Source: Promethearchaeota archaeon (GTDB taxonomy: Archaea; Asgardarchaeota; Lokiarchaeia; Sigyniarchaeales; SOKP01). Taken from it: a stretch of 64,000 nucleotides of DNA. Location: NCBI GenBank assembly GCA_011364925.1, contig RDOA01000002.1:124001-188000 (forward strand). The letters are read 5' to 3'. A program made the position numbers and the translations under genes. Numbering within the stretch: position 1 is the stretch's first letter; every line of letters starts with the position of its first letter. This document shows positions 49,922-56,141 of the stretch, in pieces. The notes under the pieces are model-generated. The model saw nothing but the letters and a program-made list of their open reading frames with translations, had not been told where the DNA came from and ran no database searches.

Positions 49922-50383
49922 TTAAGAACTAAGTTTTTCTTTTAAACCGGTGAGAGCATTCAACCACGCCTTTTCAAAATAGTTGCGAGCTTCATGCCAA
50001 TCACGATCTTCTCTCCAACCAGTATGGAACAAATAAAGTAGTGTTTTTTTCGGATCCTTAGCGCTTGGAGTAAAAACGATAACTACATGCGTCAAGGGAT
50101 CACAGAAATTCATAAAAGACTGATACATCTCTGGTCCTTTCCATTCAAAGGATAGAAATTTATCTTTTTCAATGCTGGTAATCTTACAACCTAATGTACT
50201 ATTAATTTCTGGATTCTGAGGTGACCAAAATAGTTCGTATTTTCCCCCAACTTTAGGTTCAACGTCAGCTTTCTCAGGTAGCCATGATTCTAATTTCTCG
50301 TTCACAGTAAATAAATCATAAGCCTGACTAACTGTACAATTTAATTCGATCTCAATTTGTATTATGTTTTGCATTACAGACAC
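49922..50383 (-). CDS. SRPBCC (AHSA1-like) domain protein
   Basis: A 153-residue START/SRPBCC-superfamily protein of the AHSA1 type. It opens with a strand then SQAYDLFTVNEKLESWLPE, continues PKVGGKYELFWSP, has FLSFEWKGPEMYQ and THVVIVFTPSA, and ends with GWREDRDWHEARNYFEKAWLN, the typical long C-terminal helix that closes the hydrophobic cavity. Members bind small hydrophobic ligands or act as co-chaperones. No more specific role is visible. It reads the same way as the adjacent methyltransferase but with a gap of over 100 bases. Confidence 0.87.
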   Translation of the reverse strand: MSVMQNIIQIEIELNCTVSQAYDLFTVNEKLESWLPEKADVEPKVGGKYELFWSPQNPEINSTLGCKITSIEKDKFLSFEWKGPEMYQSFMNFCDPLTHVVIVFTPSAKDPKKTLLYLFHTGWREDRDWHEARNYFEKAWLNALTGLKEKLSS

Positions 50384-50443
50384 TTTAAAATATTGTTAAT
50401 AGATGTTTTAATATAAAATAAGATAAAAATAATTATAAAATTT

Positions 50444-51211
50444 TTAAATCTCCTCGCCAGACTCCTTACCGAGTAAGCGTATAACGGAATCTGCAAGTTT
50501 GTTTTGACTTCGGCTCATTATTCCCTTGATTTTCCCTTCTCTTCCAAGAACTCGGAGCATGATACCGTTCCAAACTGAAGATGGATTTCCCTTTTCTCTT
50601 TTAAATCGGTCTCTATGAATATCTACGCTAATATTCTTGTAATTCTTAGACGCATCTGAACACTTAAAACATAAGATACATTTATCAATGTCTACAGCTA
50701 TGTCATTGCCGTCTCGTGACATAGCATCTACGGCGCATTCTTTAGTAAACGCGTCAATTACTTTAGTGTCTTTCTCAGTACAATTGAACTTAATCGAACC
50801 ATCTACTACTTTCCGAACTTTCTGACCGTTTTCTAATGTGCGAACTTCTTCTTCGAATTCTGCGAGTGAACCATTCTCTACTAATAAAATCTTGGGCTCG
50901 CCATTAATTAATAATTCAAGCGTATATCCTGGACATATCCACGAACAACTTCCACACCAAATGCATTTATCGGTATCGACAACAATTTTTTTATCCGATT
51001 CAATCCCCATTTCTTCTGGTTTTCCAATAGCCGTCTTTTTTAATGGCTCATCGTAAATAGATACAGTTACAGGGCAAACTCTATGGCAAAAGCCGCATTC
51101 TACGCATTTACTTTCATCGTATTTCAGGATGCTCTCATGAGATAGCATTTTGTAAACATAATGAGTAATATTCTCATCAATTTCAATTGCTTTTTTAGCC
51201 GGTAATGACAT
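50444..51211 (-). CDS. Multi-cluster ferredoxin-like protein, last gene of the hdrA operon
   Basis: A 255-residue iron-sulfur protein. Residues 36-50 hold CVECGFCHRVCP, about 83-95 hold CIWCGSCSWICP, and a third segment CILCFKCSDAS (about 178-188) lacks the fourth cysteine and proline, so it may bind a cluster with another ligand. Two 8Fe-like modules are thus separated by a long insert (LLVENGSLAEFEEEVRTL). It follows the FrhB/FdhB-like gene by 88 bases on the same strand and lies in line with mvhD and hdrA, so it is likely to shuttle electrons between that complex and other partners. No membrane anchor is seen. Confidence 0.85.
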   Translation of the reverse strand: MSLPAKKAIEIDENITHYVYKMLSHESILKYDESKCVECGFCHRVCPVTVSIYDEPLKKTAIGKPEEMGIESDKKIVVDTDKCIWCGSCSWICPGYTLELLINGEPKILLVENGSLAEFEEEVRTLENGQKVRKVVDGSIKFNCTEKDTKVIDAFTKECAVDAMSRDGNDIAVDIDKCILCFKCSDASKNYKNISVDIHRDRFKREKGNPSSVWNGIMLRVLGREGKIKGIMSRSQNKLADSVIRLLGKESGEEI

Positions 51212-51299
51212 AATCCCTCACTTATATATTATTTCTTTAATTAAAATTATATTTTTGTATTTTTAAGAATTTATAAAAAATCTTTTTTCCGTAATCGAA

Positions 51300-52439
51300 T
51301 TATGTTTTTTCTAATTCCATTTGGCTAATCGCTTTACCAGACCTAAATGGTATATCATCAATACTTTCCCCAGAACTATATCCAAATTTTTCCTTGAAGG
51401 CGTCATTTAATGATTGAAAGTATAACGATAGAGGAAGATGTTGTGGGCAGTTGTTATCACAATTTCCGCATTCCACGCAACGATCGGCAACGTGAGCGAT
51501 TCTTGTTAATTGATAAGATTCTTTGTTGATGATCTTTTCCTTTCTCTTCTTCATTAGGATACAGTCAACACAATAACATACAGGACAGCCACGAATGCAC
51601 ATGTTGCACATCGTACATTTCTGAAATTTATCGAGCTTTTCTTCTTGCGAAAGTTTGTCCCACTCTTCTAAATCTTTTGCTCTTTTTGCCAAAGCTGTAT
51701 CTTTTATACCCTTAAGGACTTCTTGATATTTTACTTTCAGATCATCAGGTAATGGTTTTTTATTGATTTTAGACTTCTCTACAAGCTCGGCGCCTTTATT
51801 CGAATAAATCTTTAGAACTATTTCGTCAGAATCAATAGGTAGAACGAGATCACTTACAGCGATATCTGCTACAGCCGGAACCTTCCTATAGCATCGTGAA
51901 CAGTTTTCTGCTATGTTCAATCCAACTTCTTTAGTGCTACCATCTTCAAATTGAAGGATTAATCCATTATCACCGACTTTTTCCTTAACAATTTTAGTTA
52001 AATCGATGCCTTCTACTTTCTTTATCTCACGGGAAACATCTACTACCATCCCTCTATCCTCAAATCCTACGATGAAGAGATTATCCATGTTAATCTGCCT
52101 AATCTTTGCTAGCTCAATTATCCCTCGAGCATCACAAGGACGAGCGATTATACCTACTTTCTCGTTTTTTGCCCCATCGACGGATTTATGTAAAAATTTT
52201 GCAGCAGTATCCGTTCGAGCGTATCCATATGCTATCAAATTAGTTAAAGGAAATGTAGCAAAATCTTCTGGCTTCTCAACAAGTACAGGAGAAACTGTAA
52301 ACCGATCAACAGCCCCAGATTTCTTGTCTACCTTCAAGTTTGCTCCGATTACTTTATCAACGAATTTTTCTTGCAAAAGTGTAGCTAATAGTTTAGGAAA
52401 ATCTTCAATTTTGATTAAATATTCATCTAATGCATCCAT
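51300..52439 (-). CDS. FrhB/FdhB-like iron-sulfur flavoprotein subunit
   Basis: A 379-residue protein of the coenzyme F420 hydrogenase/formate dehydrogenase beta-subunit family. The N-terminal half has VGIIARPCDARGIIEL, the hallmark of this subgroup, and SRCYRKVPAVADIAVSDL, with cysteines that can bind a cluster. The C-terminal part has CTMCNMCIRGCPVCYCVDC and CVECGNCDNNCP, two [4Fe-4S] sites. Homologues carry FAD and exchange electrons with F420 or a similar hydride carrier. Its position downstream of hdrA and mvhD suggests that it feeds or drains the Hdr complex. F420 use itself is inferred. The 178-base gap to mvhD contains the SECIS-like hairpin. Confidence 0.85.
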   Translation of the reverse strand: MDALDEYLIKIEDFPKLLATLLQEKFVDKVIGANLKVDKKSGAVDRFTVSPVLVEKPEDFATFPLTNLIAYGYARTDTAAKFLHKSVDGAKNEKVGIIARPCDARGIIELAKIRQINMDNLFIVGFEDRGMVVDVSREIKKVEGIDLTKIVKEKVGDNGLILQFEDGSTKEVGLNIAENCSRCYRKVPAVADIAVSDLVLPIDSDEIVLKIYSNKGAELVEKSKINKKPLPDDLKVKYQEVLKGIKDTALAKRAKDLEEWDKLSQEEKLDKFQKCTMCNMCIRGCPVCYCVDCILMKKRKEKIINKESYQLTRIAHVADRCVECGNCDNNCPQHLPLSLYFQSLNDAFKEKFGYSSGESIDDIPFRSGKAISQMELEKT

Positions 52440-52537
52440 GTTATTCCAACTCTAATTTGTATTAATTTCTCTAAAATTTATTTTTAATTTTTTTACTTTC
52501 TTTCTCACATTACACTTATTTACTAAAATTTTATTTA

Positions 52538-52608
52538 TGTGTTCTATGGTGCTCCCATCTCTTCTGCTGAGTTCTCGTTTTTTTAACTCAGCGTCATCAG
52601 CAAACACA
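52538..52608 (-). promoter_or_regulatory. SECIS-like hairpin in the mvhD 3' region
   Basis: On the coding strand, 9 bases after the mvhD stop, the sequence folds into one long hairpin. TGTGTT pairs with AACACA (6 bp), TGCT with AGCA (4 bp, with a 6-base bulge on the 3' side), an internal loop GATGAC opposes AGAAGAGATGGG, then GCTGAGTT pairs perfectly with AACTCAGC (8 bp), and the terminal loop is AAAAAAACGAG. An ATGA on the 5' side opposite GA-rich sequence, and unpaired A in the loop, recall eukaryotic SECIS cores, while the GAA-bearing asymmetric loop recalls archaeal ones. The position in the 3' untranslated region is that of archaeal SECIS elements. Five in-frame UGA codons in the two upstream genes need such an element. 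Confidence 0.72.
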
Positions 52609-52617
52609 TTTATTAAT

Positions 52618-53064
52618 TCAAGCTTTCGCTTTTTCTTTTTGTGTGCCACTTTTAGATTTTAATGGACTTGGTCCTAGTTCTCGTATGACTTTATCGAATT
52701 TTATGGCTTCTTGTTGAAACTTTTGGCCTTCTGCTGCTGTACAATATCCAAACATTATCCGTTCTTCACTGAGTCCCATTGATTTTAGAACTTCTTTCAT
52801 ATACTCAACTTGTCTATACGCGGCGTAATTTCCCGTCTCGTAATCGCATTCTTTTGGATATCATCCAATAATCATCACACCGTCAGCTCCTCTCCCAAAC
52901 GATCGCATAACCGTATCCGGATCGACTCTACCCGTGCAAGGAACTAAAACTACTCTAATTGATAGTGGGTATTGGGCTCTTATTGTTCCCGCCATATCAG
53001 CAGAGCCATATCCTCATTTCCAGCACAGAAACGCTATAATTTTAATTTCTTGTTCTTCTGTCAT
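52618..53064 (-). CDS. mvhD: MvhD/VhuD electron-transfer subunit with two selenocysteines
   Basis: A [2Fe-2S] protein linking HdrA to an electron donor such as a hydrogenase or formate dehydrogenase. Reading from ATG 53064 gives 148 residues if two in-frame TGA codons (53014-53016 and 52861-52863) are decoded as selenocysteine (U). The products FLCWKUGYGSADMAG (U17) and VMIIGUYPKECDYETGNY (U68) fit the family sequences C-x-x-C-x-Y and GC-x-P-x-x-C-x-Y exactly, with U where Cys is expected. The downstream half has KEVLKSMGLSEERI and the usual SPEEE-like end is replaced by a lysine-rich tail. The natural stop is itself TGA. The start is 13 bases after the hdrA stop, so translation is coupled. 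The gene would be missed by standard translation, which returns only the last 60 codons. Confidence 0.93.
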
Positions 53065-53077
53065 GTTAATTACCTCT

Positions 53078-55054
53078 CTATTCCTCCATTGGAAGTAATG
53101 CATCGATTTGTGCTATATACTGATCGTCTCTAAAATATGTTAGTTCAATTGCTTTGGAGGGACACGTTGCTGTACAGGATCCACAACCGCGACATTTGAT
53201 TATATCAACTTCTAAGTGGCCTTCGTTGTTTACAGAAATGGCAGAATACGGACATATTTCAATGCATTTATAACACTTTGCACATCTCTCGTCTATTGGA
53301 GTAGCTCGTATTAGTTCCATCGTATGTTCACCTCTACCCATCGGTATACTAGCAGCTGACGCAGCTCCTCTTGCTTGACTTACGGCTTTATCGATCTCTT
53401 TTTGTCCTTGAGCTGAACCCGCAATGTAAATTCCCATTGTTTTTGTACTGATCGGATCTAACCTAGCATGATATTCCTTTAAAAACCCATCGGGACTTTT
53501 CTCCATGTTAATAACCCTTGCAATTTCTACTGTTCCTTTAGATGGAAGCGATGCCGGCGATAAAACTACCATCTCAAATTCCATTGTAACTACGGTATCG
53601 GTTCCAACAGGCTCAAATTGTACTGTTAAATTCTTTGTTAGTGGATCTTCTTGGATATCTCCAACTATTCCCTTAACAAAAATTATCCCCGCATTTCTTG
53701 AACGCCTATAGTATTCTTCGTAATCTTTTCCTGCGCATCTCATATCTATATAAGAACATAATATATCTGAATCAGGATACTCCGATTTTATTAATTTCGA
53801 GTTCTTTAGAGACAAATTGCAGCATATTACTGAACAGTGCGCGTTTTTCGTGACATCTCTACTCCCTACGCAATTGATAAATAATATTTTTTTTGGGCGT
53901 TTTCCATCAGATGGTCGTTTTAAGTGGCCATATGTAGGTCCGTTAGGAGCTAATATTCGTTCAAGCTGAATTTGATTGATTACATTATCGTAGGTTCCAA
54001 ATCCATAATCTGGTCCTTCATAGATGTCCCACCCCGTTGCAACTATTATTGTCCCAACTTCGAGATCTACATATTCATCTTGAATGCTAAAATCGATCGC
54101 GTCTTCTTCACACGAATCAACGCAAGCAAAACATTCTACACAGGTTTCTCGATTTATATCGTAAATAGCAGGAACTGCTTGGGCAAAGGCAATATCAATA
54201 CATTTTCTCGCAGATAATCCTTCATCGAAGTAATTTGGAATGTAAATTGGACATACTTCAGTACAGGCTCCGCATCCCGTACATTTAGTTTCACTAACGA
54301 ATCGGGATTTCCTTTTAACCTTAACCCTGAAATTACCAATATACCCATCAACTTGGATGACTTCGGAGTAAGATAATATTTCAATATTTTTATGGCGGTT
54401 TGCTTCTAACATCTTCGGTCCGAGAATTCATATCGAACAGTCATCTGTAGGAAAAGTTCTATCTAATTGACTCATTCTTCCACCGATCGTAGTGTTTTTC
54501 TCAACTAAATATACTTTAAATCCTTTGTCTCCTAAGTCAATTGCGGCTGATAATCCAGCAATTCCTCCACCAATTACGAGAGCTTCCTTTTTAACGGGAA
54601 CTGTTTTCGTGGGTACATCTTCTAATAATCGCGCTCGTGCTATTCCCGCGGTTATGAGCTCAATTGCTTTCTGAACGGCTTTTTCTCTGTCTTCTGGAGC
54701 TTGGTGGACAAAGCTACAATGTTCTCTGATGTTTACAAATTCTAAATATCTTGGAGGAATATTAGCTTCGCTAAGTATTGCGTGAAAGACGGGTTGATGC
54801 GTCTTTGGAGTGCACGCAGCTACAACGATTCTTTCGAGTTTAAATTCTTCGATCTGTTCCTTTATGTATTCTGAACCTCCCTCGGTTCACATAGAAAGAT
54901 ATTCGTATGCTTTAACTCTATCTAATTTGTTTAATTCTTCAACAATTCTAGGTACGTCTAGTATTCCAGCGATATTTATACCTCAGCGACACACAAATAC
55001 ACCAACAACTGATTTCTCAGTGTTTTCATCATCCTTGGTCTGATTTCCAGACAA
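53078..55054 (-). CDS. hdrA: HdrA, electron-bifurcating flavoprotein, with three selenocysteines
   Basis: FAD-containing core of heterodisulfide-reductase-type complexes; electrons are split or joined at its flavin. From TTG 55054 the frame has 658 codons with three in-frame TGA read as selenocysteine: U24 (54983-54985) in VFVCRUGINIAG, U56 (54887-54889) in YLSMUTEGGS and U209 (54428-54430) in DDCSIUILGPKM. Each replaces a Cys conserved in the family. The thioredoxin-reductase-like core has LVIGGGIAGLSAAIDLGDKG; inserted ferredoxin sites are at 258-268 (CTGCGACTEVC), 305-315 (CVECFACVDSC) and the end 591-631 (CAKCYKCIEIC, CRGCGSCTATC). An upstream in-frame stop and an AAAGGTG before the TTG fix the start. 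It is the first gene of hdrA-mvhD-FrhB-like-ferredoxin. Confidence 0.95.
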
Positions 55055-55337
55055 CCTTTACACCTTTGTATATATATCCTCCTAATAATTCAAGAGTCTA
55101 TACTTCACTAATAGCTTCTTTATTATTTCTAATACATAATAATTATGTTATGTAAAATAGTTCTTATTATTAAAATTCAATTATTATTAGTCTTAAATAG
55201 GAAAGTTTTGAGTTTGGAACTTTCTTCATTTAGGATTTATGTCGAAAATCCGATTTAGTATTAGATTAGATAAAAATTATAACTAATGATCGTATTTTTT
55301 ACTCTTAAGTATAATATTTATTAATTGAGGATTATCT
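55055..55337. promoter_or_regulatory. Divergent intergenic region with a 7-bp stem-loop
   Basis: This gap lies upstream of both hdrA (minus strand) and a membrane-protein gene (plus strand). GAAAGTT (55201-55207) and AACTTTC (55218-55224) form a perfect 7-bp stem with a 10-base loop, a candidate operator or transcript hairpin. An AGGAGG at about 55077-55082 on the minus strand lies too far from the hdrA TTG to serve it and would suit a start that I do not find. No other gene is visible. Confidence 0.4.
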
Positions 55338-56141
55338 ATGCTAGAATCTCAACCTCAAACTGAAAAAAAAAAGAAATATAGAATCGACGAACTCCAAAGA
55401 AAAACATTAATTGGGAAGATTTATCCAATACTTTTAATTGGATCGTTAATTTGGTTAGCAGGAGAACTCTTATTTAGCTATTTATTCTCAGATCTGGAAT
55501 TAACAGGAATAAATTTAATTTATTATATTATTGTGGTAATAGTAGAAGTGAATTTATTTGTCACATTTTTCTTTACTTCCCGATATAATAAAACACTATT
55601 GAGCTTCTTAATTTTTATAGTACTGTCCTTTCTTTTGGGAATTTTAAGTTTACCCATAGTAATTTTCACACAATTTATTCCCCAACTTCACATGTTCGTA
55701 AGTCTCTCTGTGGGTGCAAATCTTATAGTTAACTTCATGACGCTCTTTTTAAGAGATAAATACTTCTCTAAAGGGTATATTTGGACGCATCTGTTATTGT
55801 TCTTGGTTGGTTGTGCAATAGTAGAACTTGTATTTATTTTTGTTTTTAATATCCATAACTTCTTGTTAACTATACCAATCTCCTTAGCGTATATTTTGAT
55901 CGTTTCCATGATTTTGATCTTTTTTGGCGTTCGAATGGTTCAGCAAATTAAAGAAAATAATTGGATGTACGCCTTATTTAAAATTCTTGGGGTCATATTA
56001 TTATCCCTTGCAGTAGCTGTTGTAATTGTTGTAATCGTACTTATTGCGATCGCATGTATAATTGCCGGTGATAGTGCTGTAGATTTATCAGGTTTCGCTG
56101 GCGGTGGAGGACCCAGAAGAAAAAAGAAGAAACTACAGTAA
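55338..56141 (+). CDS. Multi-pass membrane protein, unknown
   Basis: A 267-residue protein with a basic N terminus (TEKKKKYRIDELQRKTLIGK) and about six or seven hydrophobic helices between residues 28 and 245, including LIYYIIVVIVEVNLFVTFFF and LLSLAVAVVIVVIVLIAIAC. It ends with a glycine-rich linker and a very basic tail (GGGGPRRKKKKLQ), an arrangement often seen in Asgard membrane proteins. I recognise no transporter signature. It is divergent from hdrA and 77 bases ahead of the winged-helix gene on the same strand. Confidence 0.68.
   Translation: MLESQPQTEKKKKYRIDELQRKTLIGKIYPILLIGSLIWLAGELLFSYLFSDLELTGINLIYYIIVVIVEVNLFVTFFFTSRYNKTLLSFLIFIVLSFLLGILSLPIVIFTQFIPQLHMFVSLSVGANLIVNFMTLFLRDKYFSKGYIWTHLLLFLVGCAIVELVFIFVFNIHNFLLTIPISLAYILIVSMILIFFGVRMVQQIKENNWMYALFKILGVILLSLAVAVVIVVIVLIAIACIIAGDSAVDLSGFAGGGGPRRKKKKLQ

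Follow-up and report, generated by a model that had tools for sequence, protein, structure and literature searches.

SECIS elements of Asgard archaea are taken as a link to the eukaryotic selenocysteine (Sec) system. The published Asgard model consists of two stems and one apical loop (Huang 2024, PMC11227280), and a review also gives the lokiarchaeal element a single apical loop (PMC9499178). Sharing of a SECIS by hdrA and frhD has already been published (Huang 2024, PMC11227280), the distance between archaeal SECIS and UGA is given as 70-1,500 nt in a review (PMC9499178), and UGA stop codons in Lokiarchaeia often overlap the AUGA of the SECIS core, as stated in the main text of Huang 2024 (PMC11227280), which cites Mariotti 2016. 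Asgard archaea are reported to lack SBP2 (PMC11227280, PMC9723677), and a lokiarchaeal SECIS was non-functional in Methanococcus maripaludis (PMC11881835).

Comparison with known SECIS types

The window (the whole 64-kb stretch of DNA analysed) carries on its minus strand hdrA (53078..55054; start codon uncertain) followed by mvhD/frhD (FlpD, PF02662; 52618..53064; Pfam E 5e-43). The element behind them, at 52537..52609 on the same strand, is very probably the single SECIS of this operon, a three-way junction of helices P1, P2 and P3 that would direct Sec insertion at three hdrA and two mvhD codons.

With Asgard eSECIS-like type I, as described in the main text of Huang 2024 (PMC11227280; Mariotti 2016), the element shares the AUGA_GA core, the stem length range and the A-rich loop, together with the place behind frhD/mvhD, the sharing by hdrA and frhD and UGA stops that overlap AUGA. 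The upper stem has 8 bp and no mismatch (published range 7-15 bp with at most two mismatches), the apical loop has 11 nt (published range 8-20 nt without ministem), the core (AUGA 52597-52594, GA 52564-52563) fits the type I motif 5'-GA_[G/A]A-3', and the position is 3' of selenoprotein genes with in-frame UGA (mvhD and hdrA, five UGAs). The published type I model is without P3, whereas the window element has this third helix inside its lower stem. The features of eukaryotic SECIS, an AUGA/GA quartet and unpaired loop adenines, are present at the level of sequence, and the difference from eukaryotic type I lies in the third helix and in the proposed service of two cistrons.

Likeness to the euryarchaeal (methanogen) SECIS consists of the 3' location, the archaeal host and the hdrA-vhuD context, and an AUGA_[G/A]A-like motif has been reported in euryarchaeal hdrA/frhD elements, as in the window element. 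The euryarchaeal GAA (5') opposite A (3') is absent, the 5' strand of the window's internal loop containing no GAA, and the three consecutive G-C pairs are absent from the stem GCUGAGUU/AACUCAGC. The first-pass annotation had seen mixed archaeal and eukaryotic features here; that view does not stand, as the euryarchaeal signature is missing and the GAA located on the 3' strand does not correspond to it. What lies behind mvhD is a eukaryote-like element with an added third helix. An Rfam scan of 50000-56000 gave no SECIS family at E <= 5 and only two sub-threshold chance matches. The home-made covariance model R1, which has the window among its rows, matches 52533-52612.

Architecture and conservation of the element

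With MvhD as query, 61 genomes of the family, mostly metagenome assemblies, were searched, and loci with two UGAs were retrieved. The window and its orthologues are referred to as type A (alignment A1, 39 rows) and the paralogous operons as type B (A2, 42 rows). All 80 homologues listed in named genomes belong to 'Candidatus Lokiarchaeota/Lokiarchaeia' assemblies.

The fold of 52531-52625 has a free energy of -20.3 kcal/mol (z = -3.3; 2/200 shuffles as good), and the same element is found in 39 further type-A loci. Its lower stem P1 pairs the 5' strand AUGUGUU (52603..52609) with AACACAU (52543-52537), with 94% of cells paired in A1. The AUGA and GA of the core, both invariant in A1, form the 5' and 3' halves of a putative quartet whose non-Watson-Crick pairs were read from the letters only; across 59 cores the UGA is invariant and the preceding base is A in 58 and G in one. 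The upper stem P2 pairs GCUGAGUU (52585..52592) with AACUCAGC (52573-52566) and encloses the apical loop AAAAAAACGAG (52574..52584), in which the A's at positions 3-5 are invariant in 59 cores.

The element lies directly behind mvhD in 83/83 loci with a two-UGA mvhD, the window and its own-genome paralogues included. Comparison among these relatives shows both the secondary structure and its conservation. Pairing covers 97.5% of cells in A1, where eight pairs have changed on both sides and 0/500 shuffles reach the covariation score; sliding the partner by 1-3 columns lowers pairing to 28-53%. These compensatory changes fall in six of the eight pairs of P2 and in two pairs of P1, and P2 covaries in type B as well. 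A2 has 93.0% of cells paired and 12 pairs changed on both sides (shuffles: 0/500 by score, 1/500 by number of pairs), and unaided RNAalifold recovered P2 in both alignments and P3 in A1. The hairpin described in the first-pass annotation, with its perfect 8-bp upper stem, its A-rich loop and AUGA and GA on the 5' and 3' sides, respectively, is thus confirmed on the minus strand at 52609-52537, although that description overlooked a third hairpin of 4 bp within its own coordinates. The compensatory changes that it had looked to in the two stems are present, and the hairpin is kept wherever relatives keep the UGAs, which upholds the identity as a SECIS.

Several loci depart from the common form. 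The type-A P2 of L021, L023, L029, L031 and L036 has one extra U in its 3' strand (AACUCA-U-GC), a bulge that several genomes have in common. In the type-B loci L045, L048, L051 and L053 the mvhD stop codon UAA begins the upper stem, and the core AUGA is therefore coding, in another frame. L076 (G016:C23) has a type-B mvhD with a type-A SECIS, close to that of L028, right after an apparent type-B remnant (CCGAATAGAATGA), as though SECIS elements had been exchanged naturally. L091, at first sight an mvhD with one UGA and no SECIS, was rejected as an exception: UGAs are absent from its hdrA, and its mvhD is probably a Cys paralogue that genuinely ends at the UGA.

A third helix inside the lower stem

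The third helix P3 (52546..52558) consists of AUGG (52558-52555), the loop GAGCA and CCAU (52549-52546). These 4 bp, AUGG/CCAU, are 100% paired and identical in every A1 sequence, and because of this invariance type-A P3 provides no covariation. Type-B P3 varies and covaries, with CCAU/AUGG, CCCU/AGGG, CCCAU/AUGGG, AACUCA/UGAGUU and other forms, and reaches a mean stem score of 12.1 vs 7.4 in shuffles (score of at least 10: 93% vs 14%). The P3 loop contains GC in all type-A and most type-B elements and GU in some of type B.

The core-only model R3 ends before P3, so the elements that it finds are not selected by this helix. In the window's genome R3 found nine elements (E <= 0.09), with nothing further below E 3.7, and in another order of the class it found five. 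Whichever gene they serve, all 14 can form a hairpin at most 26 nt behind the GA, with differing sequences. Tested against base shuffles, P3 in these 14 elements gives a Fisher p = 3e-9 (single p 0.0025 to 0.29), a value that overstates independence since the elements are related. R3 had no matches in another Asgard order (around G081), where a positive control was absent.

As P3 recurs, is enclosed by P1 and is located in the 3' strand of the internal loop, the element would be a three-way junction, possibly a k-junction. In the k-junction, known from the TPP riboswitch (Wang 2014, PMC4005666), a kink turn forms the basis of a three-way junction; the likeness consists of a three-way junction beside tandem G-A pairs, the window element being known from secondary structure alone. 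P3 is new relative to the models described in the main text of Huang 2024 (PMC11227280) and in the review (PMC9499178).

UGA codons probably read as Sec

The Sec-UGA codons of hdrA are at 54985-54983, 54889-54887 and 54430-54428, which places them 2388, 2292 and 1833 nt from the core, and those of mvhD are at 53016-53014 and 52863-52861, at 419 and 266 nt. Among the relatives, UGA alternates with Cys: hdrA column 24 holds 74 UGA and 4 Cys codons, column 56 has 17 and 60, and column 81 has 19 and 59. Column 209 has UGA in 78/79 and UAU in one, and both UGA columns of mvhD are kept in 83/84 loci. The 78 operons with both hdrA ends encode mostly four (42) or five (31) Sec codons, with six in two, three in two and none in one. 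The five UGAs of the window's hdrA and mvhD are most likely recoded as selenocysteine.

The window's genome encodes SepSecS (E 6e-113). A search of that genome with the Rfam model for tRNA-Sec gave none, its two weak matches being tRNA-Gly and tRNA-Leu, which could be explained by the intron in the T-arm reported for lokiarchaeal tRNA-Sec (PMC9499178).

The stop codon of the window's mvhD, which the earlier annotation overlooked, is also a UGA (52620-52618), located 23 nt before the core; L012 and L013, the nearest relatives, have UAA at this place in the alignment. UGA is the stop codon of 12/83 mvhD genes, and in nine of these it is the UGA of the core itself; the window differs in that its stop does not overlap the core. 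Such overlap was dropped as a novelty, being already stated in the main text of Huang 2024 (PMC11227280), citing Mariotti 2016.

Probably one element for two cistrons

Each of 77 sources had exactly one R3 match, and its place was invariably behind mvhD (E <= 0.012; next best E = 1.5); the whole window contains one element. The window's sequence is among the rows from which R1 and R3 were made, and E-values of such home-made models are rough. Neither R1, R2 nor R3 detected a second element in hdrA or in the stretch before it (~77-84 loci), a search that elements of other types would escape. The space between the end of hdrA and the aligned mvhD start is 14-46 nt throughout, with 99 nt in one own-genome paralogue. 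A solitary hdrA without mvhD (L121, genome G204) has a UGA at the same place (DECCIUILG) and its own element directly behind, the UGA of whose core is the stop codon of the gene. The hdrA gene thus uses elements of this kind, and the closest that the operon offers lies behind mvhD.

One element per operon and none inside hdrA argue for a single SECIS shared by both genes, which would most likely serve five Sec codons, the farthest at 2,388 nt. This reach is longer than the archaeal distances of 70-1,500 nt in the review (PMC9499178). The first-pass annotation had proposed one element for two cistrons, from a spacing of 13 bases between the hdrA stop and the mvhD start and from five codons, the farthest over 2.3 kb away. 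The spacing and the five in-frame UGAs were recovered as described, the proposal agrees with the one match per operon, although sharing as such had been published, and the further SECIS within hdrA that was named as counter-evidence was not detected by the three models.

Alternative explanations

A hairpin directly behind the last gene of an operon could be a terminator or a 3' stabiliser, with the UGAs as sequencing errors or signs of a pseudogene. This is hardly credible, given that the UGA columns are shared by 83 mvhD genes and likewise by the hdrA genes next to them, that Cys is the sole alternative at variable columns, and that a terminator would need far less conservation than loop, core and stem display. 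P3 might lie outside the element, as a chance hairpin or as a processing or termination signal beside the SECIS; single P3s are often non-significant against shuffles, and the helix is invariant in type A. Its location inside P1 in both types, the lack of a U-run behind it, its covariation in type B and its return at the same place with other sequences in nine own-genome and five other-order elements, with GC in most loops, make such an outsider unlikely.

The element could also serve mvhD only, with recoding of the hdrA UGAs left to another element, located within that gene or ahead of it. The 2,388 nt to hdrA codon 24 lie beyond the published range, and a SECIS in the 5' UTR has a precedent in fdhA of M. 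jannaschii (PMC9499178), but the three models found no separate element, other types aside, and the solitary hdrA carries the same type of element at its 3' end. In addition, operons with both hdrA ends and mvhD Sec-UGAs all have at least one hdrA Sec-UGA. A division of labour between two elements is therefore very unlikely.

Proposed mechanism and implications

Under the preferred reading, a single three-way-junction SECIS for both genes, a two-cistron mRNA would carry the element at its 3' end, where it would fold into P1, a kink-turn-like AUGA_GA core with P2 and the A-rich loop, and then P3. A putative archaeal factor, equivalent in function to the eukaryotic SBP2, would bind the element and recruit the Sec elongation factor, and UGA would be translated as selenocysteine at the three hdrA and two mvhD codons, as far as 2.4 kb upstream. 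At the mvhD stop codon, a UGA 23 nt before the core, translation would end, and we infer as the reason that a ribosome there probably already disturbs the element, so that only UGAs farther away are recoded.

More tentatively, and with somewhat less than even confidence, the SECIS elements of Lokiarchaeia may be k-junction-like three-way RNAs that require a P3 with a GC loop, perhaps as a factor site, and whose P3 was lost or replaced toward the eukaryotic SECIS; one such element would then reach two cistrons across a distance of more than 2.3 kb. The conserved P3 is a concrete and mutable candidate for the contact that lets archaea read a distant SECIS, and it may bear on the failure of the lokiarchaeal element in a methanogen.

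Candidate selenoproteins from the SECIS-first search

The covariance models detect SECIS elements without knowledge of the gene and already point to selenoproteins beyond the published Asgard list. L110 (G000:C24:22106) is a good SECIS with P1, P2 and P3, upstream of which there is no clear selenoprotein gene. At L109 (G000:C32:33566) a SECIS-like element lies behind an ORF with two adjacent UGAs (..HADUUADN..) and no Pfam match. L117 (G204:C3:786878) and L120 (G204:C5:241408) each encode a protein of ~120-140 aa, marked by GUGG or AIUGTGG, with a SECIS directly behind; one of the two proteins has a weak match to Fe-S biosynthesis (HesB/IscA) proteins (E 0.005, below the cut-off), and HesB-like proteins are absent from the published Asgard selenoprotein list (Huang 2024, PMC11227280).

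A candidate family of tiny membrane selenoproteins includes G000:C41:11754-11936 (L107/L146), L142-L145, L147, L148 and L151-L153, with L156 and L158-L160 as more distant members. These proteins of ~60-80 aa have one membrane helix (predicted by eye) and a Gly-rich stretch followed by UGA (..GGGU..), and their SECIS, which includes P3, lies 3-18 nt behind the stop. The family is a candidate new one, as it is not among the selenoprotein families listed in the main text of Huang 2024 (PMC11227280). Synonymous/non-synonymous counts in the tails behind the UGA (7/15 and 14/74), set against a neutral synonymous fraction of ~0.22, are no proof of a translated tail. The family profile matches in 25/61 family genomes, and the strong matches all have exactly one UGA.
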